From assembly GCA_013141125.1 (NCBI GenBank), contig JABFRO010000001.1, positions 1,550,001 through 1,614,000 on the forward strand: a DNA stretch of 64,000 bases, written 5' to 3'. How positions within the stretch are numbered: the first letter of the stretch is position 1; each line of letters begins with the position of its first letter. The notes below the pieces were generated by a model that searched no databases, was not told the origin of the DNA, and saw only the letters and a list, made by a program, of their open reading frames with translations. The position numbers and the translations under genes were made by a program. Positions 28,301 through 64,000 of this stretch are shown here, piece by piece. Source of the stretch: Methylophilaceae bacterium (GTDB lineage: Bacteria > Pseudomonadota > Gammaproteobacteria > Burkholderiales > Methylophilaceae).

Positions 28301-28371
28301 CCTTTCTCGTACCCGCCGCTGGCGATCAGCGCGTGTTCGATGTCTTTTTCAAAATCGATTTCCTTATGCAT
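25312..28371 (-). CDS. hsdR: Type I restriction enzyme R subunit HsdR
   Basis: This 1019-aa HsdR has an N-terminal PD-(D/E)xK nuclease with PDVVLAVNGLP then ATLELKNP near residue 140. Two RecA-like motor domains follow, with Walker A HSAGSGKSNSIAW near residue 310, VDEAHSSQSGE (DEAH box) and SRLNRTTRGKTDTFVLDF (motif VI). A C-terminal helical domain would bind HsdM. It translocates DNA and cuts unmodified DNA at a distance, as part of an R2M2S complex with hsdM and hsdS upstream. It is separated from dinD by a 190-base gap holding REP-like hairpins. Confidence 0.97.
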   Translation of the reverse strand: MHKEIDFEKDIEHALIASGGYEKGDPHGYDAEAALFPSDVIAFVQKTQPKIWARLTQLDAAKASAMLLDSLVKELAAKGALAILREGFKCVGKTVRLAYFAPNTGLDPLASERFKDNRLTITRQVNTKSGAIPDVVLAVNGLPVATLELKNPMSATRWNVENAKYQYRFERDPKELLFAFKQRCLVHFAVDTELVFMTTRLEGKDTFFLPFNLGQDHGAGNPAVDGDVRTSYLWHKALTRDSLMDILARFMHLDVEEKTLVTEKGIKRHRKESMIFPRYHQLDSVRACTFHAQAHGSGHNYLIQHSAGSGKSNSIAWLAHRLSSLHDVNNEKIFHSVVVITDRRVLDQQLQDTIFQFEHKLGVVQKIDENTQQLAKALADGVPIIISTIQKFPFITQAIRTLEASGRGIDISTAGKRFAVIVDEAHSSQSGETAMELRKILNKDGIESAIAEQLLDMDDEALSEEAKKELLREQLKRAKQPNLSFFAFTATPKFKTLAVFNEPGSNGKAPFHHYSMRQAIEEGFIHDVLAHYTCYKRYYKLIQKIEQDPEVPRRKAARALARFVEFHDYEIAQKVEVIVEHFRTHTRHKIGGRAKAMVVTGSREHAVRYKLGFDKYIKDKGYTDVKSLVAFSGEISLKEFVDKKFTEVNMNNGIKESELPEKFNTEEYQVLLVAEKYQTGFDQPLLHSMYVDKRLSGIQAVQTLSRLNRTTRGKTDTFVLDFVNEPEDIYIAFKPYYAVTPKGDDTDPQQLNTLAHTLAGWQIFTGAEVSVWCEIWFRNRMNPTGGEHKKLNGLLDLAVERYKKLGEEDQNLFKGQLASFRNLYGFVSQIIPYQDSDHEKLYTYARFLLTKLPYSLDTRIIHVDDEVELKYYRLQKISEGAIDLKVGETEALYGPTEVGTGQADEEVQLSTLVGKLNERFGTEFTPADQLFFDQVRETAVANEQLRQAVMANSIENFEPVFNKQLENLFVERMDGNEEIFVRLMNDEAFRNIAASHLMRAVYNQIRTAGNATSTTKVNV

Positions 28372-28447
28372 CTTTTCCCCTCAAATAGTCCAACGGGTTG
28401 TTGAACAAATGGCGCAAGCACCGCTTGCACTGAATGAAATATCAACT

Positions 28448-28534
28448 GTCATTCCGGGCTTGACCCGGAATCTAGCCATAACAAACATCGGCGCGCTTTG
28501 CGCGCCACTGGATACCCGCCTTCGCAGGTATGAC
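28448..28534. repeat. REP-like triple-hairpin repeat between dinD and hsdR
   Basis: Three stem-loops in a row: TTCCGGG-CTTGA-CCCGGAA at about 28451-28470, GGCGCGC-TTT-GCGCGCC at about 28490-28506, and ATACCCGC / GCAGGTAT at about 28512-28530. The whole is bounded by GTCAT and ATGAC. This is the layout of the dispersed 'GTCATTCC...GGAATC...GGTATGAC' palindromes common in Betaproteobacteria. It may act as an mRNA stabiliser or attenuator within the hsd operon. Confidence 0.7.
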
Positions 28535-28563
28535 GCGAAACTTTATTGATGGTATGGCTGCAA

Positions 28564-29404
28564 TCACTTCTTCTTATCCAGCTTCTTCTTCGCGCTTGCT
28601 ACCTGCTTGATGCTTTGCTCAGGTGTCGGCAATGCTTCCGGCATCGTCCCGCCTAACTCCTGAATGGTTTGCCTGACTTTTTTCCCCACTTCAAAATGGG
28701 TTTGATTGGCTTGTTGCTTTCCTTGGATATGATCACGACGCAACTTTTCTTCTGCCTGCGTGGCGCGGAACAAATTCGCGGCCAACTCCGTACTACCCAT
28801 GTGGTCGAGAATTTTCTGACTCTTCTTCAACCCCTTGCGCGCATGAATATCCTTAGCCCCCAAGCCGCCATACAAACCCTGATAGCCATGATCCTGAAAA
28901 ATCGTAATCCAGCGGCGTTTCAACGCCTGCATCCTTCGCGGCTGCGGCGAGATGCTTGTTGTGTTCGGCCAATTCATTGCGAATCGCCAGCCGTTTTTCA
29001 TCTTCGGAAAGCTGGGCAAATTTTGCGTTGTCCTCCAGCTCTTGCCGCCGAGTTTGCAACGCAAAATAAGTTTGACCGTTCGCAATCACAGGTTTGGACG
29101 GATCACCGTTCTGCACAATCAGATAACAGGCATAACGGGATAGCCGCACATCCTCCACCTCGCGTTGCGCGCCAGAACCAATCTCGACCATTTCGAGGAT
29201 ATCCTCGAAATGGTCTAAAACCGCATAACCACTGGCTTTGCAGGCTTTCTGCGCCTTGGCGATAACGGGCAAAAAATGTCGGTATTCGGAATACTCCAAC
29301 ACCTTACCCAGTTGGCGTGCCGACCAAAATTCATTGCCCGCCTCGTCAAGCTGACGAATCCCCTCAAAACCAACATGCTTTGGATTGATACTATTTTTAG
29401 CCAT
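28564..29404 (-). pseudogene. dinD: DinD/RhuM-like DNA damage-inducible protein, frameshifted
   Basis: The 5' part (from the ATG at 29404) reads MAKNSINPKHVGFEGIRQLD, then WSARQLGKVLEYSEYRHFLP, and ends after a stop beyond ETPLDYD. The 3' part continues the same family in another frame with IFQDHGYQGLYGGLGAKDIH and runs to 28564. Joined, they make one DinD protein of about 280 aa. Homologues normally read LDYxIFQDHGYQG, so the lesion near 28906 looks like a 2-base loss. DinD-like genes are frequent cargo in type I restriction operons; E. coli DinD is SOS-induced and has been reported to inhibit RecA. The ATG overlaps the hsdS stop by 8 bases. A sequencing error cannot be excluded. Confidence 0.85.
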
Positions 29405-30755
29405 GAGTCACCTCCTTGACGTTGGTTCGGTTTGGAATCTGGAAATTGCGCACATCGATCTTTCCGGTCACGGCGTTGGTAATCAGGGCGCTTCTATATT
29501 CTGCTAGAGCGGAAATTACATCATCAACCTTCGTCGCCTGCTCATCTATCTTGGCAGTAATTTTGGAGATGTTTTCGAGGATAGCGTCCTGTTCATCCAT
29601 TGGGGGAAGTGGAATGACTGTGTTGGTCATGTACCCCATTTCAATGCTCTCCACAGTGCAACCTTGTTTGCTCCAAAGAGGCAAGAGCCCGTCTTGCAGC
29701 CCACTGATAAACCAATGAATAAAACCCGGACGCAGGCAATCACTAGCGACAAGGGCTTTCATGTCTTGATTCAGCGAGACTTCAACAGTATTGCGAGCGA
29801 CCGGAATGGTGTGGCGAAGAATTCCAGATCGAACAACAATGAGCACTGAATCAACTGGAACAATTTTTGTGGCGCTTTCCGCAACACCTAAGTCGGTCAA
29901 ATAATCCTCGGTCGCCGCAATGAAATCGCACTTCATATCCTTCGGTGATACCCACGGTATTTCTCCGTTCCAATACTCTGGCTTTCCGGTATTTGGAGTT
30001 CCGCCGCCGAGTGTCGACACGACAAACTTAAGTCGCTTGGCTTCCCAATGTGCTGGAATTTCCCCCAACCAAGCCACTCCCGAATCCTTCATCGGCGCTG
30101 CGGGATCAAGCCCCTTGGTAACGGCATGGCTGATCAGTGCCGTGCGCTTTTCGGCCAGCTTATCGAGCAAGGCTTGCTGCTTGGCGATCAAGGCATCGAT
30201 TTGCGCGGTTTTGAAATCAAGGAAGCGGGCGATGGCTTGTTGCACACCAAGAGTGGGCAAGCCTGCTCGAAAATCCTTAAAGAAAGTCTCAGGCACCCGC
30301 TTTTGTCCACCAGCGCCATACATTTCAGACTCGCCGAGTTTTCGGAATAAATCAGAAATTGTCAGGTAGAATAAAAATTGTGGCTCAAGCTGATCAGGAT
30401 TTGCACGCAATACATGTAGCTCGGTGGTGCCGAAAGCTGTCTTGTTAGTCAAACCTTTTGCCAAGGCTGCTTTTCCGTTTTCAAAGCACGGGGTGATTTT
30501 TGCCACCACCACATCATCATCGCAAAAATAGGTATAGCCACTGCCGATTTCACTCAGCTCTTTTTCTTCATCCAGACGAATTCCACCGTATTCGCCGACC
30601 GCATCCATTGTCACGAAAGAAACTAGGTCAGAACCATCCAACTCTATCTCGCTCTTGCTTGGATTCATTTTTATGGCGAATCGCAGGCGCATCCCTTCCC
30701 ATGTAACAGGAAAGCCTTCAGACGAGTGTTGGGGATAGGCGGGGTATCGAGCCAT
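29397..30755 (-). CDS. hsdS: Type I restriction specificity subunit HsdS
   Basis: This 452-aa HsdS has two target-recognition domains, about 20-170 and 220-375. Each is followed by a conserved helical spacer: FLDFKTAQIDALIAKQQALL near residue 185 and ISKITAKIDEQATKVDDVIS near residue 395. These set the distance between the two half-sites. The start is the ATG at 30755, overlapping the stop of the 34-codon ORF as TGATG. It determines the sequence methylated by HsdM and cut by HsdR; the recognition site cannot be read from sequence alone. Confidence 0.95.
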   Translation of the reverse strand: MARYPAYPQHSSEGFPVTWEGMRLRFAIKMNPSKSEIELDGSDLVSFVTMDAVGEYGGIRLDEEKELSEIGSGYTYFCDDDVVVAKITPCFENGKAALAKGLTNKTAFGTTELHVLRANPDQLEPQFLFYLTISDLFRKLGESEMYGAGGQKRVPETFFKDFRAGLPTLGVQQAIARFLDFKTAQIDALIAKQQALLDKLAEKRTALISHAVTKGLDPAAPMKDSGVAWLGEIPAHWEAKRLKFVVSTLGGGTPNTGKPEYWNGEIPWVSPKDMKCDFIAATEDYLTDLGVAESATKIVPVDSVLIVVRSGILRHTIPVARNTVEVSLNQDMKALVASDCLRPGFIHWFISGLQDGLLPLWSKQGCTVESIEMGYMTNTVIPLPPMDEQDAILENISKITAKIDEQATKVDDVISALAEYRSALITNAVTGKIDVRNFQIPNRTNVKEVTHG

Positions 30756-30808
30756 CAAACCACCTCCGCCAACATCTCTTGTTCCAACAGGCTATTCTCA
30801 CTGGCTAT
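30753..30808 (-). repeat. Duplicate of the hsdM 3' end (copy next to hsdS)
   Basis: Bases 30753-30808 match 31998-32063, the true end of hsdM, apart from one 9-base gap and several substitutions. The encoded peptide ends LEQEMLAEVV against LEQEIMAMLAEVV in HsdM. The two copies flank the 76-codon ORF and the Abi gene, so that segment was probably inserted at the old hsdM-hsdS junction. Confidence 0.8.
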
Positions 30809-30859
30809 CACCATTAGCGAGCATGGTAGTGGCTTAATGCACGCATCATTTAGTCTCAT
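30755..30859 (-). CDS. 34-codon ORF bridging abi and hsdS
   Basis: The ATG (30857-30859) overlaps the abi stop as ATGA and its stop overlaps the hsdS start as TGATG, so ribosomes could pass from abi to hsdS without release. The C-terminal part (VIASENSLLEQEMLAEVV) is a degenerate copy of the HsdM C-terminus. The first 14 codons are unrelated. It is most likely a coupling relic rather than a functional protein. Confidence 0.5.
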   Translation of the reverse strand: MRLNDACIKPLPCSLMVIASENSLLEQEMLAEVV

Positions 30860-31773
30860 AGCGTTTGCTCCAGCCAAATCGCTCGCTGTGCCCAACCCTG
30901 CGGAAAGCCCATTTCCGTCACATCAATCTGCGGGGTGGCCCGGATCAATGCCTGCAGGCGTTTGCGCCAGGTTGAAGCCGGGCTGATGCGGGTGAGCAAA
31001 TAAGCCAGCATGGTCAGGGTGTTGTAGAGTTTGCGGTCTTGCGCGGGGTTGAACATGGCGGCCAACCCAACGGGCTTTTTGCCTGGAATCTGCATTTTCA
31101 GTGATAGTTTGCGGTTCCACATGCGGCCATGATGGGCGCAATGGTTGCGCACGACAGAGAGGTGGTGAGCAAAAGACACCAGCACCTTTTCATCCAGCCC
31201 ATAAGTCTCCGCAATGTCTTGCCGGTCTTTGGGTATGCGCAGATTTTGTAGCCAGCGTGACAGGTGTCCCAGTGTCATCATTTCACACGCCACCCACAGC
31301 GGCGGGCTGGTGAGTTGCGGGTATTGACGGCGGTAGTGTTCGGCGAAGGTTTCGTGGCTGCGGCTGTATTCCTTAATTAGCTCATCACGGCTTTGTTGCC
31401 ACAACTGTGGCTTGGAAAAATGCGTCGGCTCTTCGTGGGCAAAGGCACCGTAACGCAGGCTTAGCGCATTGGACAGACGTGCGCGCAGTGAGATTTCCAC
31501 GCGTTCGATAGCATCAATTAACAACAAGCGCAGCTCACGGTCAAAATCATAGATAGTCAGTACGGTGGTGAAATCCGCCCCGGCGGAAAAAGCATGGTCA
31601 TCGTCTCTGGTAGTCGCCTGCTCAAACGGCAGCCAGTAGGCACGCAAGCGGTAATAACTAATGTGCTGAAGATAGTGGTGCGCCTGCGCTCGGTCGGCAA
31701 TGTGCAGGCCGCGTTTGATGAGTAAATCAACTTGCTGGCTGGTGGTGAGCGGCGGTTTTTCATAGCAGGTCAT
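30856..31773 (-). CDS. Abi_2 family (AbiD/AbiF-like) abortive infection protein
   Basis: This 305-aa protein begins MTCYEKPPLTTSQQVDLLIK, with the Abi_2 signature HYLQHISYYRLRAYWLPFE near residue 40 and IERVEISLRARLS near residue 105. The segment VVRNHCAHHGRMWNR near residue 212 contains the R-N-x3-H motif of HEPN-type ribonucleases, the superfamily to which Abi_2 belongs. It probably acts as a phage-triggered RNase that halts the infected cell. It sits inside the hsdM-hsdS junction, flanked by a duplicated hsdM end. The start at 31773 overlaps the preceding ORF stop as ATGA. Confidence 0.85.
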   Translation of the reverse strand: MTCYEKPPLTTSQQVDLLIKRGLHIADRAQAHHYLQHISYYRLRAYWLPFEQATTRDDDHAFSAGADFTTVLTIYDFDRELRLLLIDAIERVEISLRARLSNALSLRYGAFAHEEPTHFSKPQLWQQSRDELIKEYSRSHETFAEHYRRQYPQLTSPPLWVACEMMTLGHLSRWLQNLRIPKDRQDIAETYGLDEKVLVSFAHHLSVVRNHCAHHGRMWNRKLSLKMQIPGKKPVGLAAMFNPAQDRKLYNTLTMLAYLLTRISPASTWRKRLQALIRATPQIDVTEMGFPQGWAQRAIWLEQTL

Positions 31774-32000
31774 GAGCAAACCCCAGGCATAAAAAAATCA
31801 CCAGAGCGCCCTGATGTGTGAGACAGGACGGGAGTGGAGGTGAATTTCAGTGCTGGACTGTAGCCAGAAAAAGTAACCCCCCTGGTGCGCATCGTGGAGA
31901 GGCGTGGGGGGTGTTGTTGCGTCGAATTATACGCAAATGCAGGGCGATACACCAGTAAAAAACAGGCGGTTTCTGCGGGGTAAGCATTTGGGCACATCAT
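31770..32000 (-). CDS. 76-codon ORF between hsdM and abi
   Basis: The ATG at 32000 overlaps the hsdM stop as TGATG and its stop overlaps the abi ATG as ATGA. It encodes MMCPNAYPAETACFLL and later MRTRGVTFSGYSPALKF and GRSGDFFMPGVCS. I do not recognise the family. A TATAAT on the minus strand near 31926-31931 lies inside it, so the stretch could equally be a promoter region for abi. The unbroken coupled frame is the main support for translation. Confidence 0.4.
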   Translation of the reverse strand: MMCPNAYPAETACFLLVYRPAFAYNSTQQHPPRLSTMRTRGVTFSGYSPALKFTSTPVLSHTSGRSGDFFMPGVCS

Positions 32001-32063
32001 CAAACCACCTCTGCCAACATCGCCATAATCTCTTGTTCCAACTGGCTAATCTCGCCCGCAATC
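31998..32063 (-). repeat. Original hsdM 3' end (partner copy)
   Basis: This is the intact coding end of hsdM that matches 30753-30808. Together the two copies bracket 1.2 kb carrying the 76-codon ORF and abi. Confidence 0.8.
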
Positions 32064-34252
32064 ACTTCCAGCGGACGTGGCGGCTGGTAGACATAAAAGT
32101 GGCGATTGAGCGGAATTTCATAGCCCACTTTGGTTTTGTCGTGGGCTATCCACGCATCGGGTACATGCGGCAACACTTCGGCCTTCAGATAGTCTTCGCA
32201 ATGATCTTGCACCAAGGCCAGCAGCGCGTCATGCCCGGTTTCGTTATCAAAACCCAGTGGCAGCGGCAAGGCAATGTCATCCGGTAATGCCACGATTTCG
32301 GTATCGCGCAAATCAGCATCCACTTCCGGCTTACCTTTGACATCCAGGCAAATATCGGCTTGGGGGTCACGCTCCGAAAGTGCGGCAAGTATGGCTTTTT
32401 TGATGGGCGCGCCGATTTTGATGCTGGCATCCTCCAACACCCTATCCAATACCGCCTCGAATGCCGGGCGATTGCAATACAGGGTTTCGCCATTCAGTTC
32501 ACTGAGTGCGGCTTTGATGGCGGCCTGGATTTGTTCACCGGCGGCAGTTTCGGCTTTATGTGCGGCATCGTCCTTGCGTTTTTTGCTGCTGGCTAGATTG
32601 GCGAAGGCACTCTGCTCATCCAGTTTGGCAATGCGCTCGGCGCTGATCTGAAAGTTCAGGCGCAGCGGACGCTCTACGGTGATCTTGAGGAAGCCAAATT
32701 CACGGTTGTCGAAGAGCTTGCTGCAAACCCGGCGTTCAGGCTTGCCGACTGATTTATTGTCTTGGGGCAGCACTTCACTCATCCCTTCGTGCTCGTGCTC
32801 GGCATAGAGGCGCACCAATTCTTTGATGTGGTCATCCGAGAGCTCATTGCGCTTGTTGCCCAAACTCTTGTCCATTTTCTTGAAATGGCGTGTGCCGTCG
32901 ATCAACTGCACCTTGCCTAGTCGATGCGCGGGCTTTTTATTGGTGACGATCCAGACGTAGGTGTAAATGCCGGTGTTGTAGAACATCTGGTCAGGCAGGG
33001 CAACGACGGCATCGAGCATATCGCGCTCGATGATCCAGCGGCGGATATTAGACTCGCCCGATCCGGCATCGCCGGTGAACAGGGGTGAGCCGTTAAAGAC
33101 GATGGCAATTTTGGAGCCGTCTCCGCCCGCGTTCTTTCCATCCACCCACTGGGGCGGGTTGTGCATTTTGGAAATCATATGCTGCAAAAACAGCAAAGAA
33201 CCATCGTTGATGCGCGGCAAGCCCGCGCCAAAGCGACCAGAGAAGCCTTGGTCGTTGCATTCCTGCTTTACAAAATCTTCTTCCGGTTTCCATTCCACAC
33301 CAAAGGGCGGATTGGCCAGCATGTAATGGAATTTCTTGTCCGGGTGGCCATCGTGCGGCACAAAGCCGTTGGTTTTGTTCTTGGCATCCTTGATGCCCAG
33401 CGTGTCACCATAAATCAGATTATTGATCGGCTCGTCTTTAATCAGCAAGTCAGAGCAGCAGATGGCGTAGGACTCGGGGTTGTATTCCTGACCGAACAAC
33501 TCGATGTTGGCATCGGGATTGAGACCCGTCGTATAGCCATCCCCACAAATGAACTTCTCGGATTCGGACAACATGCCGCCAGTACCGGCAGTAGGGTCGT
33601 ACACACTGCGGTAGATGCCTTTTTCGTAGATGCCATCCTCACCCGTAAAAAGCAGTTGCACCATCAGGCGAATCACTTCACGCGGGGTGAAGTGATCTCC
33701 AGCCTCTTCATTGGCTTGCTCGTTGAACTTGCGCACCAGCTCTTCAAACAAATAGCCCATTTGCAAATTGTTGATGACCTTGGGCGATAAATTGATTTCA
33801 CCTGAGCAGAATTCCCTAATAATCAGGAACAACCGGTTGGCCTCATCCAGTTTGGCGATCTCGGTATCAAATTCAAATTTGTCAAAAATATCGCGGGCGC
33901 GGGGTGAAAAACCCTGAATGTAGGCAATCAGGTTGCCTGCGATATTGGGTGCATCGCCCAGCAGCTTCTCAAACGTGAAGCCGCTGATATTGAACAGCTC
34001 CTGCTTGCGGCCTTCGGCGGCGACACGTGATAACGCTTTTTCCAGTGCAGGGCCGGTGATGCCTTTATCTTCCAAGCGTTTTTTCTCATCCAGCACCTTC
34101 TGCTTGTTCTCGGCCAACACCAGATCAAAGCGGCGCAACACAATCAGCGGCAACATCACACGGCGGTATTGCGGCGGACGATAGGGGCCACGCAGTTTGT
34201 TGGCAATATTCCAAATGAAGCCAACCAGGTTTTGGTGTTGTACGTTTTGCAT
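32000..34252 (-). CDS. hsdM: Type I DNA methyltransferase subunit HsdM
   Basis: This 750-aa N6-adenine methyltransferase has an N-terminal HsdM helical domain beginning MQNVQHQNLVGFIWNIANKL. SAM-binding motif I is DPTAGTGGMLSES near residue 215 and catalytic motif IV is ANPPFGVEW near residue 315. A long C-terminal extension with charged helices follows. I prefer the start at 34252 over the upstream in-frame ATG at 34312, whose first 20 residues lack family character. With HsdS it methylates host DNA. It is the first gene of the operon and is divergent from ovoA. Confidence 0.95.
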   Translation of the reverse strand: MQNVQHQNLVGFIWNIANKLRGPYRPPQYRRVMLPLIVLRRFDLVLAENKQKVLDEKKRLEDKGITGPALEKALSRVAAEGRKQELFNISGFTFEKLLGDAPNIAGNLIAYIQGFSPRARDIFDKFEFDTEIAKLDEANRLFLIIREFCSGEINLSPKVINNLQMGYLFEELVRKFNEQANEEAGDHFTPREVIRLMVQLLFTGEDGIYEKGIYRSVYDPTAGTGGMLSESEKFICGDGYTTGLNPDANIELFGQEYNPESYAICCSDLLIKDEPINNLIYGDTLGIKDAKNKTNGFVPHDGHPDKKFHYMLANPPFGVEWKPEEDFVKQECNDQGFSGRFGAGLPRINDGSLLFLQHMISKMHNPPQWVDGKNAGGDGSKIAIVFNGSPLFTGDAGSGESNIRRWIIERDMLDAVVALPDQMFYNTGIYTYVWIVTNKKPAHRLGKVQLIDGTRHFKKMDKSLGNKRNELSDDHIKELVRLYAEHEHEGMSEVLPQDNKSVGKPERRVCSKLFDNREFGFLKITVERPLRLNFQISAERIAKLDEQSAFANLASSKKRKDDAAHKAETAAGEQIQAAIKAALSELNGETLYCNRPAFEAVLDRVLEDASIKIGAPIKKAILAALSERDPQADICLDVKGKPEVDADLRDTEIVALPDDIALPLPLGFDNETGHDALLALVQDHCEDYLKAEVLPHVPDAWIAHDKTKVGYEIPLNRHFYVYQPPRPLEVIAGEISQLEQEIMAMLAEVV

Positions 34253-34391
34253 GGATTCTTTTTCGATGTGGATTATTCGCCCTGATGATACCAACGTTTG
34301 ATTCGTATTCAACGCCTAACACAGACCTTATATTATTTTAACTTGGTCTGGATATTCCTCATTTACTGAACTTTGGCGTTAAAATAAAACA

Positions 34392-36488
34392 ATGAACACG
34401 ACACCAAACAATCTATTCCCCAGAACGCCTCTACTCACTGGCAATGAAGCCAGCGCCAAACGTGAGGAAATACGCGCTTATTTTCATGCCACGCTGGATA
34501 GGTATGAGCAGTTGTTTGAGACGTTGCGTAACGATGAGGCGTATTACGAAAAACCGATCACTTTGCGGCATCCGCTGATTTTTTATTTTGGGCATACGGC
34601 GACTTTTTTCATTAATAAATTGCTGCTGGCGGGGTTGATTGCCGGGCGCATTAATCCGCATCTGGAATCCATGTTTGCGGTGGGCGTGGATGAAATGAGC
34701 TGGGATGATTTGAACACCACGCATTACGATTGGCCTGCCGTGGATGAGGTGCGCCACTATCGCCAGCAAATGCGCGCCGTGGTCAATCAGCTGATAACGG
34801 AGCTACCACTGACCTTGCCCATAGACTGGAATAGCCCGTGGTGGACAATACTCATGGGCATAGAGCATGAGCGCATTCATCTGGAAACGTCATCGGTGCT
34901 GATACGTCAGCAGCGCCTGCATTATGTAGAGCCGCATCCGGCTTGGCAGCCTTGTCGCAATAGTGGAATCGCCCCGCAAAATGTGCTGGTGCAGGTGGCG
35001 GCTGGCACGGTGACATCGGGCAAGGCAGAAACCGACTGTACTTATGGCTGGGATAATGAATATGGACATCATGTGGCCGATGTGGCGGCGTTTCAGGCCT
35101 GCCGTTATCTGGTCAGCAATCAGGAGTTTCTGGCTTTTGTCGAGGCTGGTGGCTATGGCAAAACCGAGTACTGGCTGGAAGAAGGCCACGCCTGGCGTAC
35201 GCATACGCTGGCGGAACATCCTACATTCTGGATCAAACAAAGTTCTGGCTGGGCTTTACGTCTGATGACCGAGGAAGTGCCCATGCCCTGGGATTGGCCG
35301 GTGGACGTGAATTATCACGAGGCCAAGGCTTTTTGTAACTGGAAGGCGGCGCAGATCAATCAGCCTGTGCGCCTGCCGACCGAGGATGAATGGCTGCGGC
35401 TGTATGATGTCGCAGGCTTGGCCGAAGTGCCGCGAGCAGCGCAGGCGGCGGGCAATATCCATCTGGATTATTACGCTTCCAGCTGCCCGGTGAATATCTT
35501 TGCACAAGGCGAATTTTTCGATACGGAAACGCCAATTTATCCGTTTGACGGTTTCAAGGTGCATCCGCATTACGATGATTTTACCGTGCCGACCTACGAT
35601 GGGCGGCATAATCTGTTCAAGGGCGGCTCTTGGATTTCCTGCGGCAATGAGGCTTTAAAAAGTGCGCGCTATGCCTTCCGCCGCCATTTCTTCCAACATG
35701 CCGGATTTCGCTACGTGGTGGGTGCCGCGCCTGCCGAACTACCGGCTTCCAATTATGAAACTGACAAATTGCTGTCGGAATATGCCGAATTTCATTACGG
35801 TGCCAGTTATTACAACGTGCCCAACTTCCCCGCCACGCTGGCGCAAATCGGCATTGCGGCCATGGGCAACAAACCCGCACGCAAAGCGCTGGATCTGGGC
35901 TGTGCGTCCGGCCGTGCCACGTTTGAACTGGCACGGCATTTTGAGCAGGTCACCGGCATAGATTTTTCCACACGTTTTATTGGTCAGGGCGTGCAACTCG
36001 CTGCGCAAGGCCATCTGCGCTATACCCTTGTGGACGAAGGCGAGCTGGTTTCCTATCATGAATGCAATCTGACGGATTTGGGTCTACAGGCCGTTAAACA
36101 TAAAGTCGCGTTTTTTCAGGGCGATGCCTGCAATCTCAAGCCCTTATTTTCCGGCTATGACTTCATCCTTGCCGCCAACCTGATTGACCGTTTATACGAC
36201 CCCGCCAAACTACTCACCACCATTCATAACCGTTTGAATATCGGCGGCTTGTTGATGATAACTTCGCCTTATACCTGGCTGGAAGAACACACGCCGAAAG
36301 AAGCCTGGCTAGGCGGCTTCAAGCGCGATGGTGAAAATGTCAGCACGCTGGATGGCCTGAAAGCCATTTTGGGGCAGCATTTCAAACTGGTGCAAGAGCC
36401 GCAGGCAGTGCCGTTTGTCATACGCGAAACCAAGCGCAAATTTCAGCACAGCTTATCGGATGTGACGATTTGGGAACGTGTGGTTTGA
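34392..36488 (+). CDS. ovoA: 5-histidylcysteine sulfoxide synthase/methyltransferase OvoA
   Basis: This 698-aa protein has the three-part OvoA layout. First is a DinB-like domain (about 20-175) with an HxxxExH iron site seen as GIEHERIHLETSS near residue 157. An FGE-sulfatase domain follows (about 190-450, ending FKGGSWISCGNEALKSARYAFRRHF). Last is a C-terminal SAM methyltransferase (about 470-698, motif ALDLGCASGRATFEL). OvoA couples cysteine to the C5 of histidine with O2, and the methyltransferase later N-methylates thiohistidine, giving ovothiol. The fused methyltransferase and C5-type domain order separate it from ergothioneine EgtB. It overlaps the next gene, a matching C-S lyase. Confidence 0.9.
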   Translation: MNTTPNNLFPRTPLLTGNEASAKREEIRAYFHATLDRYEQLFETLRNDEAYYEKPITLRHPLIFYFGHTATFFINKLLLAGLIAGRINPHLESMFAVGVDEMSWDDLNTTHYDWPAVDEVRHYRQQMRAVVNQLITELPLTLPIDWNSPWWTILMGIEHERIHLETSSVLIRQQRLHYVEPHPAWQPCRNSGIAPQNVLVQVAAGTVTSGKAETDCTYGWDNEYGHHVADVAAFQACRYLVSNQEFLAFVEAGGYGKTEYWLEEGHAWRTHTLAEHPTFWIKQSSGWALRLMTEEVPMPWDWPVDVNYHEAKAFCNWKAAQINQPVRLPTEDEWLRLYDVAGLAEVPRAAQAAGNIHLDYYASSCPVNIFAQGEFFDTETPIYPFDGFKVHPHYDDFTVPTYDGRHNLFKGGSWISCGNEALKSARYAFRRHFFQHAGFRYVVGAAPAELPASNYETDKLLSEYAEFHYGASYYNVPNFPATLAQIGIAAMGNKPARKALDLGCASGRATFELARHFEQVTGIDFSTRFIGQGVQLAAQGHLRYTLVDEGELVSYHECNLTDLGLQAVKHKVAFFQGDACNLKPLFSGYDFILAANLIDRLYDPAKLLTTIHNRLNIGGLLMITSPYTWLEEHTPKEAWLGGFKRDGENVSTLDGLKAILGQHFKLVQEPQAVPFVIRETKRKFQHSLSDVTIWERVV

Positions 36489-37666
36489 ACTTCGACTTCG
36501 ATAAAGTGATAGAGCGTAGCGGTACCGCCAGCCTGAAATATGACGCACGCCAGGAAATATTCGGCAACGCGGATGTTGTCCCGCTATGGGTGGCGGATAT
36601 GGACTTCGCCACGCCGCTCACTGTCACGCAGGCGCTGATTGAACGCGCCGCGCATCCCATCTATGGCTATACGGTTTTTCCTGAAAGCCTGTATGAGGCG
36701 CTAATAGACTGGCTAAAGCGGCGCTTTGATTGGACGGTGAAACGCGAGTGGATAGTGATGAGCCCAGGCGTAGTGCCTTCGCTGCACGCGGCTTGTCTGG
36801 CTTATGCGCAGGCGGGTGAATCCGTCATTATTCAGCCGCCGGTGTATTTTCCATTTTTTTCCTCGGTTAGCAATACTGGCAGACAAGTGCTGCAAAATCC
36901 GCTGCGTTTTGAAAACGGACGTTACGAAATTGATTTTGACCATCTTAAACAATGTGCCGCTAAAGCCAAGCTGTTATTGCTGTGCTCACCGCATAATCCG
37001 ATCAGCCGCGTGTGGCGTAAAGATGAATTGGAGCGCTTGTTAAGCATTGCGCAAAAACATAATCTGCTGATTTTTTCCGATGAAATTCACGCCGATCTCA
37101 TCTACCCCGATTTTCAGCATTTTCCGCTCGCCGCACTGGCTGAAAACCCCGCCAACATCATCACCGCCATAGCCCCCAGCAAAACCTTCAATATCGCCGG
37201 CCTCAATCTTTCCGCATTGATTATTGCCGATGCCGCTCAGCGTAAAGCCATCACTTCCGCTTTCGATCAACTGCATGTCAGCCCATCCAACCCGTTCAGC
37301 ATCACCGCCTTTGAAGCGGCTTACCGTGCCGGCGAACCCTGGCTGGACGCGCTGCTGGTTTACTTGCAGGAAACGCGCGATTTTGTACACGCTTATTTGC
37401 AACAGCATTTACCAAAAATTCAACTGATTGCGGCCGAAGGCACTTATTTACTGTGGCTGGATTGCCGCGACTTGGGCATGACAGACGCGCAGCTGAAACG
37501 TTTTTTTGTAGAGGAAGCAGGCCTAGGGTTAAGCCCCGGCACTCTGTTTGGTCAGCAAGGCAGCGGCTTTATGCGCATGAATATCGGTGCGCCGCGTGAA
37601 GTTATCAGGCAAGCGCTGGAGAGGGTTGTGCTAGCGCAAAATCAAAGAAATCCATCCCCAAAATAA
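36485..37666 (+). CDS. ovoB: OvoB-type PLP-dependent C-S lyase (PatB/MalY fold)
   Basis: This 393-aa fold-type I aminotransferase-like lyase starts at a TTG overlapping the ovoA stop by four bases, giving the PatB-like N-terminus MNFDFDKVIERSGTASLKYD. WVADMDFATPL, SPGVVPSLHAACLAY and IAPSKTFNIAGLNLSALII (PLP-binding Lys in the last) are family marks. In ovothiol synthesis OvoB cleaves the histidyl-cysteine sulfoxide made by OvoA. The coupling of the two genes supports that role over cystathionine beta-lyase. An earlier in-frame TTG at 36470 is possible but gives a less typical start. Confidence 0.85.
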   Translation: MNFDFDKVIERSGTASLKYDARQEIFGNADVVPLWVADMDFATPLTVTQALIERAAHPIYGYTVFPESLYEALIDWLKRRFDWTVKREWIVMSPGVVPSLHAACLAYAQAGESVIIQPPVYFPFFSSVSNTGRQVLQNPLRFENGRYEIDFDHLKQCAAKAKLLLLCSPHNPISRVWRKDELERLLSIAQKHNLLIFSDEIHADLIYPDFQHFPLAALAENPANIITAIAPSKTFNIAGLNLSALIIADAAQRKAITSAFDQLHVSPSNPFSITAFEAAYRAGEPWLDALLVYLQETRDFVHAYLQQHLPKIQLIAAEGTYLLWLDCRDLGMTDAQLKRFFVEEAGLGLSPGTLFGQQGSGFMRMNIGAPREVIRQALERVVLAQNQRNPSPK

Positions 37667-58444: not shown

Positions 58445-58753
58445 TCAATCAATCGGGCTTACCACTGGCGTATCTGTATTAATCTTTTCTTTGCAAGCTG
58501 GGCAAGCATACCAACTATCGGCATTGTCTGTAACACTAAAATCATCATGCTCATCAGTTTCCATTGGCACCAGCTTCTTACCAGAACCACCCCAACCGCA
58601 AGCCGGGCATCGGTACATGGATTTATTCACACGATCAAGATATTTCTGAAAAGCGACATAACTCATCTTTTTGATGTCCATCCGCGCCGAGCTGATATGC
58701 CAGCGTATCCCAACATCTTCGTCATCGCAGCCTTTATCTATTTCTTTTGACAT
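58445..58753 (-). CDS. 102-aa zinc-ribbon protein beside MmoG-like chaperonin
   Basis: The first half is charged (KEIDKGCDDEDVGIRWHISS). The second has two CPAC knuckles (YRCPACGWGG near residue 48 and YACPACKEKI near residue 83), likely a zinc ribbon or rubredoxin-like knuckle. I do not recognise a named family. It is the last gene of the minus-strand run, 109 bases after the chaperonin and before a strong hairpin, suggesting an assembly or metal-delivery role in di-iron monooxygenase biogenesis. That role is inferred only from position. Confidence 0.75.
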   Translation of the reverse strand: MSKEIDKGCDDEDVGIRWHISSARMDIKKMSYVAFQKYLDRVNKSMYRCPACGWGGSGKKLVPMETDEHDDFSVTDNADSWYACPACKEKINTDTPVVSPID

Positions 58754-58862
58754 ACAACCTCCCGCCTAGTCTCACACCACAATTAAAACGCACGATTGTT
58801 TTTATCGTAAGCAATCCTGCGCCCCTCTCCTCTACAACATTGGCTTTCAGGTGGATCCTGAT

Positions 58863-60545
58863 TTATGGCGCTCTTGGGTCTTCGCGCGTATCAGCCGCCC
58901 ACTGCGGATCGAACGAATCCCATGCCTCTGTATCACGAATGGCGGTAATTACCGTTTCAGAAGTTAGCATGGTACCGATAACTCCTACTGATTTCTCCAG
59001 TGCTAAACGAATAACTTTAGTCGCATCCAACACACCCTTATCATAAGCATTGCCATAAGTTTCAGTGCTGGCATCAAACACCGCAAACGGGTCATCTTGC
59101 AACGACATGGCATGTTGCACAACATCCGCACTTAAACCTGCATTTGAGGCAATCAATCGAAGCGGTGCAGCAAGCGCTTCACGCATTACCGCAATGCCGC
59201 GATCTTGATCCGGGTTTGCGCCTGCTAAACCTTCCAGCACTTTTATGCTTTTAAACAAAGCCGCACCGCCGCCTGGCACCACGCCCTCTTCTATTGCCGC
59301 TGAAACGGAATTCCACGCATTTTCAACACGTACCATGCGTTCTTTAATTTCAATATCAAAACAACCGCCTACATGAATAACACCAATTGCACCACTCAAA
59401 TTGGCAATACGTTCTTCCAGATCTTCCGCCTCTGCCAGATTACCCGTTGGTGAACCATCACCCGGTTTACGGCCACGATAATAAGCCGCCTCTTTTTCCA
59501 ATCCAACAATACGTTCAGCAATCGCTGTTTTATCACCAATGCCGCCAATAATAGTCGAAATCTCTTCCTTGATAATAGCTTTGGTGGCTTGCCCCATATC
59601 TTCCAGCGTTACGTTTTCCGGGTCTTCACCGTTGGCTTTAAGGAAAACCTTCCCCCCTGTCAGCATCGCCAAATCCATCAAGCGCGCGGGTCGATGATCG
59701 CCATAGCCGGGCGGTTTAATGGCACACACCTTAAGTACACCACGCCCATGATTCATCACGGTTGCAGAAAGAGCCGCATCTATCAGACCTTCACAGACGA
59801 CCAGCAAGGGTCTACCTTCCTCGCCAGCAATCTCAAATGCGGGAATCAACTGATCGATATTATGTATTTCTTCATCGTAGAACAAAATCAGCGGATTTTC
59901 CAGTTCGGCCACGTGGCGAGCATGATCCGTTACCAAACTTGGTGAAGCATAACCTTGATTGTATTGAATACCTTCAATCACCTCCAACACGTCTTCACGG
60001 CCATCGCCCATTTCGATGTTCAATATACAGTTATTACCCAAGCGTTTAACCGCACCTGCAATTAGCTCACCCACTTCCTTTTCGCGTGAGGAGATCGTGC
60101 CGATTTGATTCATCACCGCTTCAGTGGTGCCATCCTGCGCCATGGCTTTAAGGTTTTCAACTACAAGCAAGCAAGCTTTATCCATGCCTTTTTTAATATG
60201 CATAGGGTCTGCACCCGCCGCAATAGACTTCAACGCTTCTTTTGCCATGCGATGCGCCAAAACAATCGAACCAGTCGTGCCATCACCTGCTTCACGCGAA
60301 ACACTATTGGCAACATCACGCAACATGCGGGCACCCAAATCGACAATCGGATCCTCTAACGAAATGGCATTTGCAACCGTCACACCATCACGGCTGATAA
60401 TAGGAGCAATACCAGCCGTACGGTGCTGAATAATGACGGATGGTCCGGCCGGACCAAACGTCACACTTACCGCACGTGCCAGCAAATCAATACCTTGCGC
60501 CATTTGAATGCGCGCATCCTTACTTTGAATCACTTCTTTTGCCAT
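58863..60545 (-). CDS. Divergent GroEL-type chaperonin, MmoG/BmoG-like
   Basis: This 560-aa chaperonin starts at the ATG at 60545 (MAKEVIQSKDARIQMAQGID). It keeps SRDGVTVANAISLEDP and GDGTTGSIVLAHRMA (ATP-site Asp) and VPGGGAALFKSI near the C-terminus. It differs from housekeeping GroEL in several places: FGPAGPSVII replaces LGPKGRNVVL, and GDGTTT is GDGTTG. It also lacks the C-terminal GGM repeats and ends DPRAP. The same divergence and position next to a sigma-54 activator are known for MmoG and BmoG, which are needed for folding or regulation of soluble methane and butane monooxygenase. No groES is adjacent. Confidence 0.85.
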   Translation of the reverse strand: MAKEVIQSKDARIQMAQGIDLLARAVSVTFGPAGPSVIIQHRTAGIAPIISRDGVTVANAISLEDPIVDLGARMLRDVANSVSREAGDGTTGSIVLAHRMAKEALKSIAAGADPMHIKKGMDKACLLVVENLKAMAQDGTTEAVMNQIGTISSREKEVGELIAGAVKRLGNNCILNIEMGDGREDVLEVIEGIQYNQGYASPSLVTDHARHVAELENPLILFYDEEIHNIDQLIPAFEIAGEEGRPLLVVCEGLIDAALSATVMNHGRGVLKVCAIKPPGYGDHRPARLMDLAMLTGGKVFLKANGEDPENVTLEDMGQATKAIIKEEISTIIGGIGDKTAIAERIVGLEKEAAYYRGRKPGDGSPTGNLAEAEDLEERIANLSGAIGVIHVGGCFDIEIKERMVRVENAWNSVSAAIEEGVVPGGGAALFKSIKVLEGLAGANPDQDRGIAVMREALAAPLRLIASNAGLSADVVQHAMSLQDDPFAVFDASTETYGNAYDKGVLDATKVIRLALEKSVGVIGTMLTSETVITAIRDTEAWDSFDPQWAADTREDPRAP

Positions 60546-60640
60546 TTGCTTTCCCATTCCTTGTTAATGCATTGTTATATCGGTAGTGTGTTACTGCATC
60601 AAACCTACCACCTCTTGATATTAAATCAAATAAAGTACTC

Positions 60641-60967
60641 CTAATCGTCATCCAGTGAAGGTAGCTTGCCATCAATTATTTCTTTCATGCACACTCGACC
60701 CAGCAACACTCGCTGCGCGCGCGCGCGGTTCAAACGGTGAAAAATCGTTACCCATGCTCTATCATGGCTACTCAATGACCGCTCAAATTCTTCTACTTCA
60801 CGCATAGGCAAATCACCACTCAGACGCAAATGCTGGTATTCCTCAAGCTCGGCCACTCGCTCCTCGCCCAGCCTTTCCACATAGTCCGCCTGTCGCTCGG
60901 CAAGCATTAAAATAGTCGCATCCAATTCTTTCGCCATATCTTCGGCAAATGTATCTCGCTCTTCCAT
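60641..60967 (-). CDS. 108-aa helical protein between MmoR-like and MmoG-like genes
   Basis: An acidic, almost all-helical protein, from MEERDTFAEDMAKELDATIL to a LPSLDDD tail, with a coiled-coil-like stretch at residues 22-47 (ERQADYVERLGEERVAELEE). AAAGGAG precedes the ATG with good spacing. It lacks the features of MmoD and I do not recognise a family. It lies 18 bases downstream of the activator and 95 before the chaperonin, so it is very likely part of that operon. Confidence 0.75.
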   Translation of the reverse strand: MEERDTFAEDMAKELDATILMLAERQADYVERLGEERVAELEEYQHLRLSGDLPMREVEEFERSLSSHDRAWVTIFHRLNRARAQRVLLGRVCMKEIIDGKLPSLDDD

Positions 60968-60985
60968 ATTAATCTCCTTTGCTAT

Positions 60986-63115
60986 TTACCAACTTCGTGT
61001 TGGCTTTCTAATCCCATACTTGGCTATTTTTTGATAAAGCGTGCTACGCGTAATACCTAATTTTTTGGCCGCATTAGAAACATTCCAGTCCGCATCACGC
61101 AAGGCGGAAAGCACAGCCTGTTGCTCCCAATCGCTTAAAGCACTCAGTTTTGGCACATCACGCGGACGCGCTTCCTGTATGGGGGCTTCAAAGTCAGGCT
61201 GCGGCGCATAAGTCTGCGTGGAAATATCCTCATAAACTTTAACGGTAGGATCAGTTTCCGCCAGAAAATCTGGTGGCAAATCGTCAATAAGAATCTCTGC
61301 GTCACGGCTCATGAAAATAGCGGCCTTAAGCACATTGTAAAGCTGACGAATATTTCCCGGCCAGGGATGTCGCAGAAACAGCTCTACCACTTCATCACTC
61401 AAAAATTTATCGGCTTCAGAAAATCCTGCCAATTTTTTTTCCTGCTCAAAAATGCTTTTAATCAGATGAATTTTGTCTGGGCGCTCACGTAAAGAGGGAA
61501 TCCATATCTGCGCGCCGTTCAAGCGATAATAAAGGTCGCGCCGGAACGTGCCATTGGCGACATTGTCGCGCAAACTTGCATTGGTAGCAGCAATCACCTG
61601 CACATCCACCTTGATAGGCTTAACACCGCCAACAGGCACAACCTCTGACGATTCCAGCACACGCAACAACGTAGACTGAAGCTCAAAACGCATATCGCCG
61701 ATTTCATCCAGAAAAATGGTTCCGCCGGATGCAAGTTGAAACTTGCCTGGTCGTCCTTCCTTATTTGCACCAGTAAAACTACCGGAGGCATAACCAAACA
61801 ATTCGCTCTCAATCAAATCACGGGGAATAGACGCGCAGTTAATCGCCACCAAAGGACCATTACGCCTGGGGCCGGACTTATGCGCCAACTGCACCATGTA
61901 TTCCTTACCGACGCCGGATTCACCAATCACCAACACCGGAATTTTGCGCTCTTGCAAGGCCACCATTTTTTTAAGCAGAGAATCCACAATCGCATCGCGC
62001 CCACCAGTCGCACTTTCAGAAGCCTCCAGCGGCTTAATGAAAGTTTTTGGAGTGCGCAATTCCATTGCCCGCGCACGCGCCAGCGCAAAGCTATCGGCAA
62101 CACGATCCTTGAGAGAAGTAGACCGCAGGCCTCCATTTAAACCATCCGCCTCCAAACCAGGCTCAATCAACAACTTGGCACCCATAGTTGTTGTGACTTC
62201 GACTTCCACCTGACCCTTGGTTTGCGCCATGAATATAGAGCTTAGACTCGTTCCCAGCGTGTACTCAAGAGTTTGACCTATCACTTGAGCTATCGCCTCA
62301 ACCCCCAGCAAATCGAGTGCAATAGCATTAATTGCAAGCACCAACTCTTCATTATCAACCACAATCAAACCATCAATCGCCATTTGCTGTGCAAACAAAC
62401 GCTCGCGCGCATCTACCGAACGTAGACGAATTAACCGCCCCTTGGGGTGATGACGCTTAAAAACATCAGATTCAGCCAAAGCACCAGCTATGCGTAGAAA
62501 AGCTACCAACGATTTAGTGGAATTAAGTTGCGGACATACAATGCCTATAACCGCCAGAAGTTTTCCATCAGCCCCCCGAACCGGATAACCTGCGGTTACA
62601 TAATCATGTAACTTATAAAAGAAATGTTCTTTGCCGGTAAAGAAAGCTTGCTTACCCAGCAGGACTGCGCTGCCAATGCCATTATTGCCAATATCACATT
62701 CATTCCAGCTGGCACCAATATTAAACAGATGCTGATCTCCAAAATAATGAAGCGCACTGGCACTGGCTCCGGCACCCACCACATGCATTAAAGTACCATG
62801 GGCATCCGTCAGCAATATCGTAGTATCAGAATCTTGTAATATCGAGTGAACATTGTATGTATGAACGGATAGCGTAGTTTGCAGTTCGAGCGACCAAGTG
62901 CGCTGATCGTGATCTTTATCGGCTTTGGGTTGGGAGAGATCCACACCCGGAATTAATCCATGCTGTTCAACACAACGCTCCCAGGCTTGTGAAACCTCAA
63001 GCCGTATCCAATCAAACCCTTCAGGCAGCCGCTTGGTCTTACGCATCGCATCCCACGCGCGCGTTGTACTATCGCCACCTGGATATAGGGCTATATCGTC
63101 CATTGTGTTAAGCAT
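60986..63115 (-). CDS. Sigma-54-dependent activator, MmoR/AcoR-like
   Basis: This 709-aa regulator has an N-terminal GAF-type sensor (about 80-230, with DAHGTLMHVVG and NECDIGNNGIGSAVLLGKQA) and a PAS-like region (about 245-330). The AAA+ domain spans about 385-610, with Walker A GESGVGKEYM, the sigma-54 contact loop as GSFTGA instead of GAFTGA, and Walker B GGTIFLDEIGDM. A C-terminal Fis-type helix-turn-helix is NVSNAAKKLGITRSTLYQKI. It should switch on a -24/-12 promoter, expected upstream of the hydroxylase genes outside the window. A second in-frame ATG lies four codons in. Confidence 0.9.
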   Translation of the reverse strand: MLNTMDDIALYPGGDSTTRAWDAMRKTKRLPEGFDWIRLEVSQAWERCVEQHGLIPGVDLSQPKADKDHDQRTWSLELQTTLSVHTYNVHSILQDSDTTILLTDAHGTLMHVVGAGASASALHYFGDQHLFNIGASWNECDIGNNGIGSAVLLGKQAFFTGKEHFFYKLHDYVTAGYPVRGADGKLLAVIGIVCPQLNSTKSLVAFLRIAGALAESDVFKRHHPKGRLIRLRSVDARERLFAQQMAIDGLIVVDNEELVLAINAIALDLLGVEAIAQVIGQTLEYTLGTSLSSIFMAQTKGQVEVEVTTTMGAKLLIEPGLEADGLNGGLRSTSLKDRVADSFALARARAMELRTPKTFIKPLEASESATGGRDAIVDSLLKKMVALQERKIPVLVIGESGVGKEYMVQLAHKSGPRRNGPLVAINCASIPRDLIESELFGYASGSFTGANKEGRPGKFQLASGGTIFLDEIGDMRFELQSTLLRVLESSEVVPVGGVKPIKVDVQVIAATNASLRDNVANGTFRRDLYYRLNGAQIWIPSLRERPDKIHLIKSIFEQEKKLAGFSEADKFLSDEVVELFLRHPWPGNIRQLYNVLKAAIFMSRDAEILIDDLPPDFLAETDPTVKVYEDISTQTYAPQPDFEAPIQEARPRDVPKLSALSDWEQQAVLSALRDADWNVSNAAKKLGITRSTLYQKIAKYGIRKPTRSW

Positions 63116-63565
63116 TCGTCAGCACATGTAAATTAAAAATCATCAACTGACACCCTCTGGCAAATGGAATTAGACAAACTTAAGCTATGGCTTATGCAAC
63201 ATTTTCCACTTTAATATTACAACTATGAATTTGCTCTATACCGATATTCACCCGAACAGATAGATAGATACGGCGGCAATAATTCAATGTAGAGCCAGCT
63301 TTAAACCGGGCTCTACCAATATCACTTTTAACCAAGATAAGCCATTAGAAAAAGCACATCATTCCAGCACACGCCGGAATCCAGAGGATTAAAAACTTCA
63401 CGCACAAACGGATAACATCAGGATGCTATCCGCCTGTCCGTGAATTTTTATTGCTGGATACAGACCATTGCCGCTATGACCATCTAATGAATTATTAGGG
63501 TTCAGAACTATTTAAACTTCAATCAATATTGGGTTCTTATTCAAGAATAACAAGCCCGATACATA
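63116..63565. other. Regulator upstream region with nested inverted repeats
   Basis: About 450 bases between the reductase terminator and the activator gene, with no coding sequence. At 63397-63444 TTCACG / CGTGAA encloses CGGATA / TATCCG; flanking GGAATCCAG and GCTGGATAC at about 63376 and 63453 resemble the dispersed REP-type repeats. The region must contain the activator's own promoter. TGGAAAATGTTGC near 63201-63213 on the minus strand resembles a -24/-12 site, but the GG-GC spacing is two bases short. Confidence 0.5.
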
Positions 63566-63592
63566 ACAAAAAGGGCGCATTCAGCGCCCTTC
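63566..63592 (-). terminator. Terminator of the monooxygenase operon
   Basis: On the minus strand AAGGGCGC-TGAAT-GCGCCCTT is an 8-bp GC-rich stem followed by TTTTTG. It lies five bases past the reductase stop, so the structural operon and the regulator-chaperonin operon are separate transcripts. Confidence 0.9.
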
Positions 63593-63596
63593 AAAG

Positions 63597-64000
63597 TTAT
63601 TCGCCGGATGATCCGCTGGCTAGGAACTTCTCGCTGCAGACGTTATCTCTTGGTATACCCAAGTTATCACACATCTGGTTAGTGGCATCCACCATGCCAG
63701 GAGGGCCACACAAATACATATCTGGCTTGGCACCGCTGGCTTCAAGATCGCTCTTCAAAATTTCAACGGCATTGCCTTTGGCACCCGTCCAGCCTTCTTC
63801 CGCATGCCAAACACAGATTTGCGCTGTCAGATTAGGCATTTTCTTGGCTAATGCCGCAATTTCATCCGCGTAGAAAACTTCTTCCTGCTTGTTTACGCCG
63901 TAATATAAGCGTGCTTCATTCGGGTCGCCACGGTCATGCATTTGGCGCAACATAGACATCACCGGTGAAAGACCTGTGCCACCGGCCACAAAGTAACGCG
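63597..64000 (-). CDS. Soluble di-iron monooxygenase reductase, C-terminus, MmoC-like
   Basis: The last 133 codons of a ferredoxin-NAD(P)H reductase-type protein; the rest lies beyond base 64000. VAGGTGLSPVMSMLRQM, RLYYGVNKQEEVFYADEI, LTAQICVWHAEEGWTG, PDMYLCGPPGMVDA and the ending VCSEKFLASG follow the MmoC NAD-binding domain segment by segment. It passes electrons from NADH through FAD and a 2Fe-2S cluster to the hydroxylase. Reductases of phenol or toluene monooxygenases share the fold but have different endings. Substrate of the enzyme cannot be told from this part. Confidence 0.88.
   Translation of the reverse strand, partial: RYFVAGGTGLSPVMSMLRQMHDRGDPNEARLYYGVNKQEEVFYADEIAALAKKMPNLTAQICVWHAEEGWTGAKGNAVEILKSDLEASGAKPDMYLCGPPGMVDATNQMCDNLGIPRDNVCSEKFLASGSSGE

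Follow-up and report, generated by a model that had tools for sequence, protein, structure and literature searches.

We describe a gene cluster for a soluble methane monooxygenase (sMMO) that runs off the right edge of a 64,000-base stretch of DNA from a Methylophilaceae bacterium. This stretch is the window (G000:C4:1550001-1614000, where G000 is the genome under study). An earlier note on the window described the end of an MmoC-like reductase gene, an MmoR-like activator gene and a gene for an MmoG-like GroEL, all on the minus strand. It took them for the edge of an sMMO-like cluster in the order C-R-G. All three genes are there. They close an sMMO cluster of a betaproteobacterium at its 3' end, and one small gene, orf108, stands between R and G.

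The window edge falls inside mmoC. The 3' part of this gene (window 63597-64000, open at the edge) and the rest of the cluster lie on the minus strand; the whole gene (C4:1613597-1614652, its end corresponding to window 64652) encodes an sMMO reductase of 351 amino acids with Fer2, FAD and NAD domains. To its left lie mmoR (60986-63115), for a sigma-54-dependent activator with AAA+ and Fis-type helix-turn-helix domains; orf108 (60641-60967), for a small all-helical protein of 108 amino acids; and mmoG (58863-60557), for a GroEL-like chaperonin. A zinc-ribbon-like open reading frame (ORF) of 102 amino acids with a CxxC ... CxxC pattern follows on the same strand (58445-58753), and its end, 58445, is the left limit of the region that the note had singled out. 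Hydroxylase genes, whose absence would have refuted the note, were looked for past position 64000 in a further stretch, L010, whose first 8,001 bases are the end of the window. The next 7 kb of contig C4 hold mmoD (C4:1614727-1615104), mmoZ (C4:1615196-1615720), mmoB (C4:1615731-1616150), mmoY (C4:1616158-1617327) and two tandem mmoX genes, mmoX2 (C4:1617443-1619017) and mmoX1 (C4:1619426-1621003), the latter next to an NAD-synthase gene. The full order on one strand is mmoX1-X2-Y-B-Z-D-C-R-orf108-G, in which mmoX, Y, B, Z, D and C form a single run. The cluster sits between NAD-synthase/succinyl-CoA-ligase genes and P-II/SurE genes. Two lone copies lie elsewhere on the contig, mmoX3 (C4:493603-495180, stretch L011) and mmoX4 (C4:1668671-1670248, stretch L012). 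The ten cluster genes and both lone copies have open reading frames.

Identity of the enzyme

By sequence this is a genuine sMMO, set apart from the phenol and toluene enzymes in a comparison that included no butane monooxygenase sequence. MmoX1 matches the methane monooxygenase alpha chain 4gam with 1078 bits in a PDB search. A phenol or toluene hydroxylase identity is rejected, since MmoX1 scores at most 67 bits against those enzymes. We take 4gam and 1mty to be MmoX of Methylococcus capsulatus (Bath) and 6d7k to be MmoX1 of Methylosinus sporium. MmoX1 is 85.1% identical to the protein of M. capsulatus, 79.6% to that of M. sporium and 82-86% to 22 rows of Methylococcales type. It is 89.1 and 88.8% identical to two other Methylophilaceae proteins, 80.7% to that of genome G014, and 51-52% to actinobacterial enzymes encoded on plasmids. 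The six di-iron ligands (E114, E144, H147, E209, E243 and H246) are present in all four MmoX proteins of G000. Cys151 is retained in all copies in the alignment, and the L012 protein is the same as the L011 protein. Twenty-six of the 27 positions inspected are as in M. capsulatus; the exception, position 100, has the residue of M. sporium.

In a 34-row MmoX alignment Cys151 is found in 31 of the 32 sMMO-type rows, G000 included, and the two actinobacterial rows have Val and Thr. Left out of the tree of these rows are three sequences that others duplicate exactly (L012, L100 and L108), the second copies belonging to L015, L016 and L020 (L093, L094 and L110), and L025 and L099, from which no full-length mmoX was obtained. 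Butane monooxygenase carries Thr at position 151, so the Cys of G000 counts against an enzyme of that type, again with no such reference in the comparison set. The earlier note had left the substrate open and pointed to butane or propane oxidation as in Thauera bmo. That option is now disfavored, because MmoX shares 80-86% of its residues with the proteins of methanotrophs and of Methylococcales-type clusters and has the same active-site residues, although no bmo sequence took part; the wider question of substrate is taken up below.

The other products agree in kind. MmoZ belongs to the gamma-subunit family PF02964 (E 7.4e-69) and MmoB to the coupling-protein family PF02406 (E 7.6e-18). The note allowed that the reductase might belong to an unrelated system, but its best PDB match is a solved MmoC, 1tvc_A (E 1e-83). 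A dioxygenase-reductase or toluene origin is rejected on weaker matches to 1krh of benzoate dioxygenase (7.8e-50) and 4wqm of toluene-4-monooxygenase (3.8e-26). MmoR matches the Pfam models Sigma54_activat (E 3.5e-60) and HTH_8 (2e-11), and counterparts of its gene occur in the sMMO clusters whose stretch extends that far. MmoG is 40% identical to a second GroEL of G000, which is encoded in L012.

The two small ORFs beside mmoG differ in their reach. orf108 occurs in 34 of the 39 loci scanned, with second copies of some loci counted; the five without it are L011 and L012, where mmoX stands alone, the truncated L025 and the two actinobacterial loci. It has nine invariant residues across 24 sequences and is predicted to form four helices (predicted local distance difference test, pLDDT, 88.6). 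Searches of Pfam and NCBIfam returned no match for it, and neither did a PDB fold search at E <= 0.001. Since both the Methylophilaceae and the Methylococcales-type loci keep orf108 next to mmoG, we regard it as a candidate sMMO assembly factor. The zinc-ribbon-like ORF also stands directly after mmoG in L015 (10975-11283), L016 (11397-11705) and L017 (20126-20434), at 59-63% identity. The examined stretches of L026 and G014 gave no match to it, and neither did those of the Methylococcales-type clusters. Among the loci scanned it is restricted to one clade of sMMO clusters. Its Pfam zinc-ribbon match of 20.3 bits is under the cut-off of 27, and its structure model, built from four sequences, has a pLDDT of 45.6.

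Four copies of mmoX and their predicted promoters

PF02332 has five matches in G000, four mmoX and one mmoY, and two in each of three other sMMO-bearing genomes of the family. The four mmoX genes have different flanks. X3 and X4 encode identical proteins within a 2343-bp block that is 99.66% identical, with five synonymous changes between the genes and no nonsynonymous one. X1 and X4 share a segment of 1668 bp at 97.6%, and X1 and X2 one of 1571 bp at 95.35%; X2 is about 3% different from the other three copies. The X3 block stops inside a lipocalin gene that is intact beside X4, so copying likely went from X4 to X3. The ratio of nonsynonymous to synonymous rates (dN/dS) is 0.015-0.107 over five copy pairs. 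The dS of 0.17 between X1 and X2 suggests that their duplication is not brand new, and gene conversion could mask its age.

Matches to the sigma-54 consensus, which we treat as predicted sites, lie ahead of all four mmoX genes at -122 to -171. They score 16.5-17.0 of 17.5, and none of 200 base shuffles of each sequence reached these scores. The exact word TTGGCA[CT]N5TTGCT occurs at four places in the window and seven 20-kb stretches of G000, each before an mmoX. Directly past the stop codons of X1, X3 and X4 is a short terminator-like inverted repeat, CTCACGCC/GGCGTGAG. ACACTGT words stand upstream of the four promoter matches and might conceivably be an MmoR site. G000 has MmoR, MmoG and a predicted sigma-54 promoter before mmoX together. 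MmoR and sigma-54 would turn on each mmoX promoter, and MmoG would aid folding. We infer that the copies are independently controlled alpha-subunit genes under MmoR. mmoX2 leads the mmoYBZDC run, and since mmoX1 and the lone copies each have a sigma-54 match and a hairpin, they should add alpha subunit in trans. The extra subunit may serve dosage or, given the distance of X2 from the others, a second isoform.

It could be argued instead that the extra mmoX genes are passive by-products of recombination and that X2 in the operon alone matters. The L011 block carries its cut lipocalin gene just as an accidental duplication would, and the near-identity of the copies could stem from gene conversion. 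There is also a precedent, since Ali and colleagues reportedly dealt in 2006, in a mutational study, with a duplicated mmoX of Methylosinus sporium. However, no copy has lost its reading frame or its sigma-54 match, the hairpin follows X1, X3 and X4, and nonsynonymous change is strongly suppressed. We consider passive copying a real possibility, though not a probable one.

Host and origin of the cluster

The host belongs to the Methylophilaceae. Its rpoB is 84-91% identical to that of eight family members, against 76-79% for three genomes that belong to the order but not to the family. The rpoB tree disregards G049, which was in the wrong frame, and is without G190 and the L026 bin, in which no rpoB was found, and G038, whose gene was in pieces. 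The note had called the backbone Nitrosomonadales-like, and rightly, as the NCBI taxonomy puts the Methylophilaceae within the Nitrosomonadales.

The gamma-subunit family PF02964 is found in 4 of 187 Methylophilaceae genomes; for the family of Methylobacter psychrophilus the count is 33 of 151. Samples of the order and the phylum gave one genome each (of 399 and 398), G000 both times. Three more sMMO-bearing genomes are placed in the family of G000: G189 (CAIYLB010000074.1), G190 (CANFZA010000067.1) and G014 (PHCX01000004.1). Like G000 they have the order XYBZDC-R-orf108-G and no pmoA match, but one mmoX was found in each (the bins are 90-99% complete) against four in G000. G189 and G190 are closest to G000, with MmoX 89% identical and the zinc-ribbon ORF in common. 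The G014 enzyme is a separate lineage.

Two further clusters have the same order. In L017 (JABBOY010000038.1, labelled Glaciimonas sp. KJS.1) the sMMO cluster is complete and the zinc-ribbon ORF is present. Its stretch has 57.0% G+C against 49.6% for the rpoB stretch of its bin, which makes the label doubtful and misbinning a suspicion; the rpoB of the bin groups with another family (100/97). Two ORFs upstream of the cluster look transposase-like by eye. L026 comes from a metagenome-assembled genome (MAG) labelled Methylophaga sp. LH_M6. Its GroEL is 81% identical to that of G000, and no rpoB was found in the bin. Its MmoX is 88% identical to that of G000 and otherwise typical, but it has Thr for Cys151, which could shift the substrate range.

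The gene order XYBZDC-R-orf108-G is found in G000, G014, G189 (locus L015), G190 (locus L016), L017 and L026. In G000 mmoR precedes mmoG, while the order is orf108-G-R in those Methylococcales-type clusters whose stretch shows mmoR, a set that did not include M. capsulatus. We built a rooted XYBZ tree from 25 loci and two PDB sets, the M. capsulatus set being without MmoB. In it G000 joins L015, L016, L026 and L017 (91.7/93), G014 joins M. sporium, the single alphaproteobacterial row (100/99), and the deep forks are weak. An unrooted seven-gene tree of 20 loci, without the PDB rows, splits the G000 group from G014 and the Methylococcales types with full support (100/100). A single clade of all six betaproteobacterial-type clusters is rejected by the approximately unbiased (AU) test on the XYBZ set (delta logL 104.5, p-AU 8e-6). 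The simplest reading is that the Methylophilaceae would have acquired sMMO at least twice. The AU result is also compatible with an old Methylophilaceae sMMO that was later handed on to Methylosinus, which is a less simple account. We believe horizontal transfer is the best explanation for the cluster of G000. None of seven genes flanking it was found beside other clusters, within the short flanks examined.

The closest known systems compare as follows. The sMMO of M. capsulatus has the same subunits and active site and an MmoX 85% identical, but its host is of a different family and G000 has four mmoX. That of M. sporium is also a true sMMO, with MmoX 79-80% identical to G000. In Methylocella, by the account in PMC6778391, the structural genes adjoin mmoR and mmoG, as they do here, and one strain has multiple mmo operons. 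PMC8782848 describes Methylocella as an sMMO-only methanotroph without the particulate enzyme, which matches the absent pmoA match in G000. Its host, however, is alphaproteobacterial, and we liken the two by description. The plasmid-borne loci of Rhodococcus sp. WAY2 and Mycolicibacterium chubuense NBB4 encode a related alpha subunit in a similar gene set, with a GroEL in WAY2. They differ from G000 in MmoX (51-52%), in Val or Thr at position 151 and in the order X-Y-B-C-Z, and they have weak MmoR matches (22 and 31 bits), no orf108 match and no sigma-54 site above shuffles.

Methane as the probable substrate

PF02461, the pmoA/amoA family, has no match in the four sMMO-bearing Methylophilaceae genomes; a Methylobacter genome was positive as a control. 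Methanol dehydrogenase and one-carbon genes, which the earlier note suggested looking for, are present. Three pyrroloquinoline quinone (PQQ) alcohol dehydrogenases of G000 are above the cut-off. One, of mxaF type, adjoins moxJ and moxG, and two, which we read as the xoxF type, adjoin MoxJ_2-type proteins. Three hexulose-phosphate synthase (hps) genes are also above the cut-off. Beside one putative xoxF-type dehydrogenase, at L090:2784-4469, is a MoxJ_2-type periplasmic protein whose C-terminal part matches ankyrin-repeat models. G000 has the genes of an aerobic methanotroph: a methane monooxygenase, a methanol dehydrogenase and one-carbon assimilation genes. The route from methane through methanol and formaldehyde to the entry of the ribulose monophosphate (RuMP) pathway is present on paper. 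MmoX, MmoY and MmoZ would form the di-iron hydroxylase, MmoB would couple it and MmoC would carry electrons from NADH, so that methane, O2 and NADH would give methanol. Dehydrogenases of the MxaF and XoxF types would then make formaldehyde, to be fixed by hexulose-phosphate synthase.

We are fairly confident that this is a complete, selected-for and horizontally gained sMMO in a member of the Methylophilaceae, probably enabling methane oxidation, and G000 is a candidate betaproteobacterial methanotroph. We infer that the genes are expressed and that methane is the physiological substrate. On balance we also favor the broader reading that some Methylophilaceae are sMMO-only methanotrophs after at least two gains, the first methane-oxidizing lineage in the Betaproteobacteria, and that four sigma-54-driven mmoX genes raise hydroxylase output in G000.

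Several observations pull the other way. MmoD reaches 70.6 bits (E 6.8e-20) against TIGR04550, where NCBIfam asks for 80, though its position is as expected. The sigma-54 match upstream of mmoB is weaker, at 13.5, and is equalled by 4.5% of shuffles. A methanotroph row, L107, scores just 12.0, possibly through a misplaced mmoX start, so a strong match is not universal. In the rooted tree the G000 sMMO joins the remaining betaproteobacterial enzymes with moderate support, and the count of 4 in 187 genomes makes sMMO rare and not a core trait of the family. Finally, sMMO oxidizes many substrates besides methane, and this breadth makes alkane, alkene or co-metabolic use possible.

The last point leads to a rival reading of the substrate, in which a true sMMO by descent is used on short alkanes, alkenes or methylated compounds or co-metabolically while the cell lives on methanol. 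Sequence alone cannot give the substrate, the close relative L026 has Thr for Cys151, and the Methylophilaceae are said in PMC10960957 not to grow on methane. Against this, the active-site residues of G000 are those of methanotrophs, and the methanol and RuMP genes needed for methane use are present. None of eight flanking genes is an alkane gene (they are of zinc ribbon, DMT-like, P-II, glyoxalase, SurE, NAD synthase, succinyl-CoA ligase and ankyrin kind), in a search that did not extend to the rest of the genome. We think this use unlikely. That the cluster was recently transferred and is silent or decaying, as its patchy distribution might suggest, is much less likely still, given that all frames are open, copy dN/dS is at most 0.107, promoter matches precede four mmoX genes and X1 and X2 have a dS of 0.17. 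Contamination or misassembly is hardly credible: those relatives with this type of sMMO that bear names are MAGs and L017 looks misbinned, but the cluster is found 1.61 Mb along a contig of 2.01 Mb in a 3,206,422-base, four-contig assembly (99.89% complete, 0.45% contaminated), four mmoX with distinct flanks share that contig, and a contig of 407 kb in G014 holds a further sMMO cluster.

Two other regions of the window may be mentioned. Type I restriction-modification genes with abortive-infection-like genes among them occupy 25312-34312: a restriction-like gene (25312-28371), a specificity gene (29397-30758), an Abi_2/AbiD-like gene (30856-31779), an abiF RNA (31876-31911) and a methyltransferase gene (32000-34312). 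At 34392-37666 a protein with DinB_2, FGE-sulfatase and methyltransferase parts is followed by an aminotransferase-fold protein, a pair that resembles the genes for ovothiol synthesis (ovoA-ovoB).

The Methylophilaceae are the textbook methanol-fed satellites of methanotrophs. PMC12482762 classes them as not methane-oxidizing, and PMC8782848 speaks of Betaproteobacteria as without known methane oxidizers. PMC6794327 screened Methylophilaceae genomes and collected reference proteins for methane oxidation, and the word 'mmoX' is absent from its main text. Against the family's non-methanotroph status, PMC11931723 names it among methanotroph families, without argument, and PMC10960957 lists it among 13CH4-labelled 'methanotrophs/methylotrophs'. 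By titles and abstract beginnings among the matches listed in the open-licence literature, we found no report of sMMO in the Methylophilaceae. The enzyme is of a known kind; what appears to be new is the host, the presence of two sMMO lineages in a single family, and an mmoX gene in four copies that each have a predicted promoter. If sMMO works in some Methylophilaceae, surveys of methane potential based on taxonomy or pmoA alone overlook them. If this is true, the 13CH4 label that stable-isotope studies find in the family could partly reflect direct methane use, and cross-feeding would no longer be the default reading. The family would then offer a natural experiment, a methanol and RuMP specialist that was, on paper, one acquired cluster from methanotrophy, and that then multiplied the gene for the catalytic subunit.

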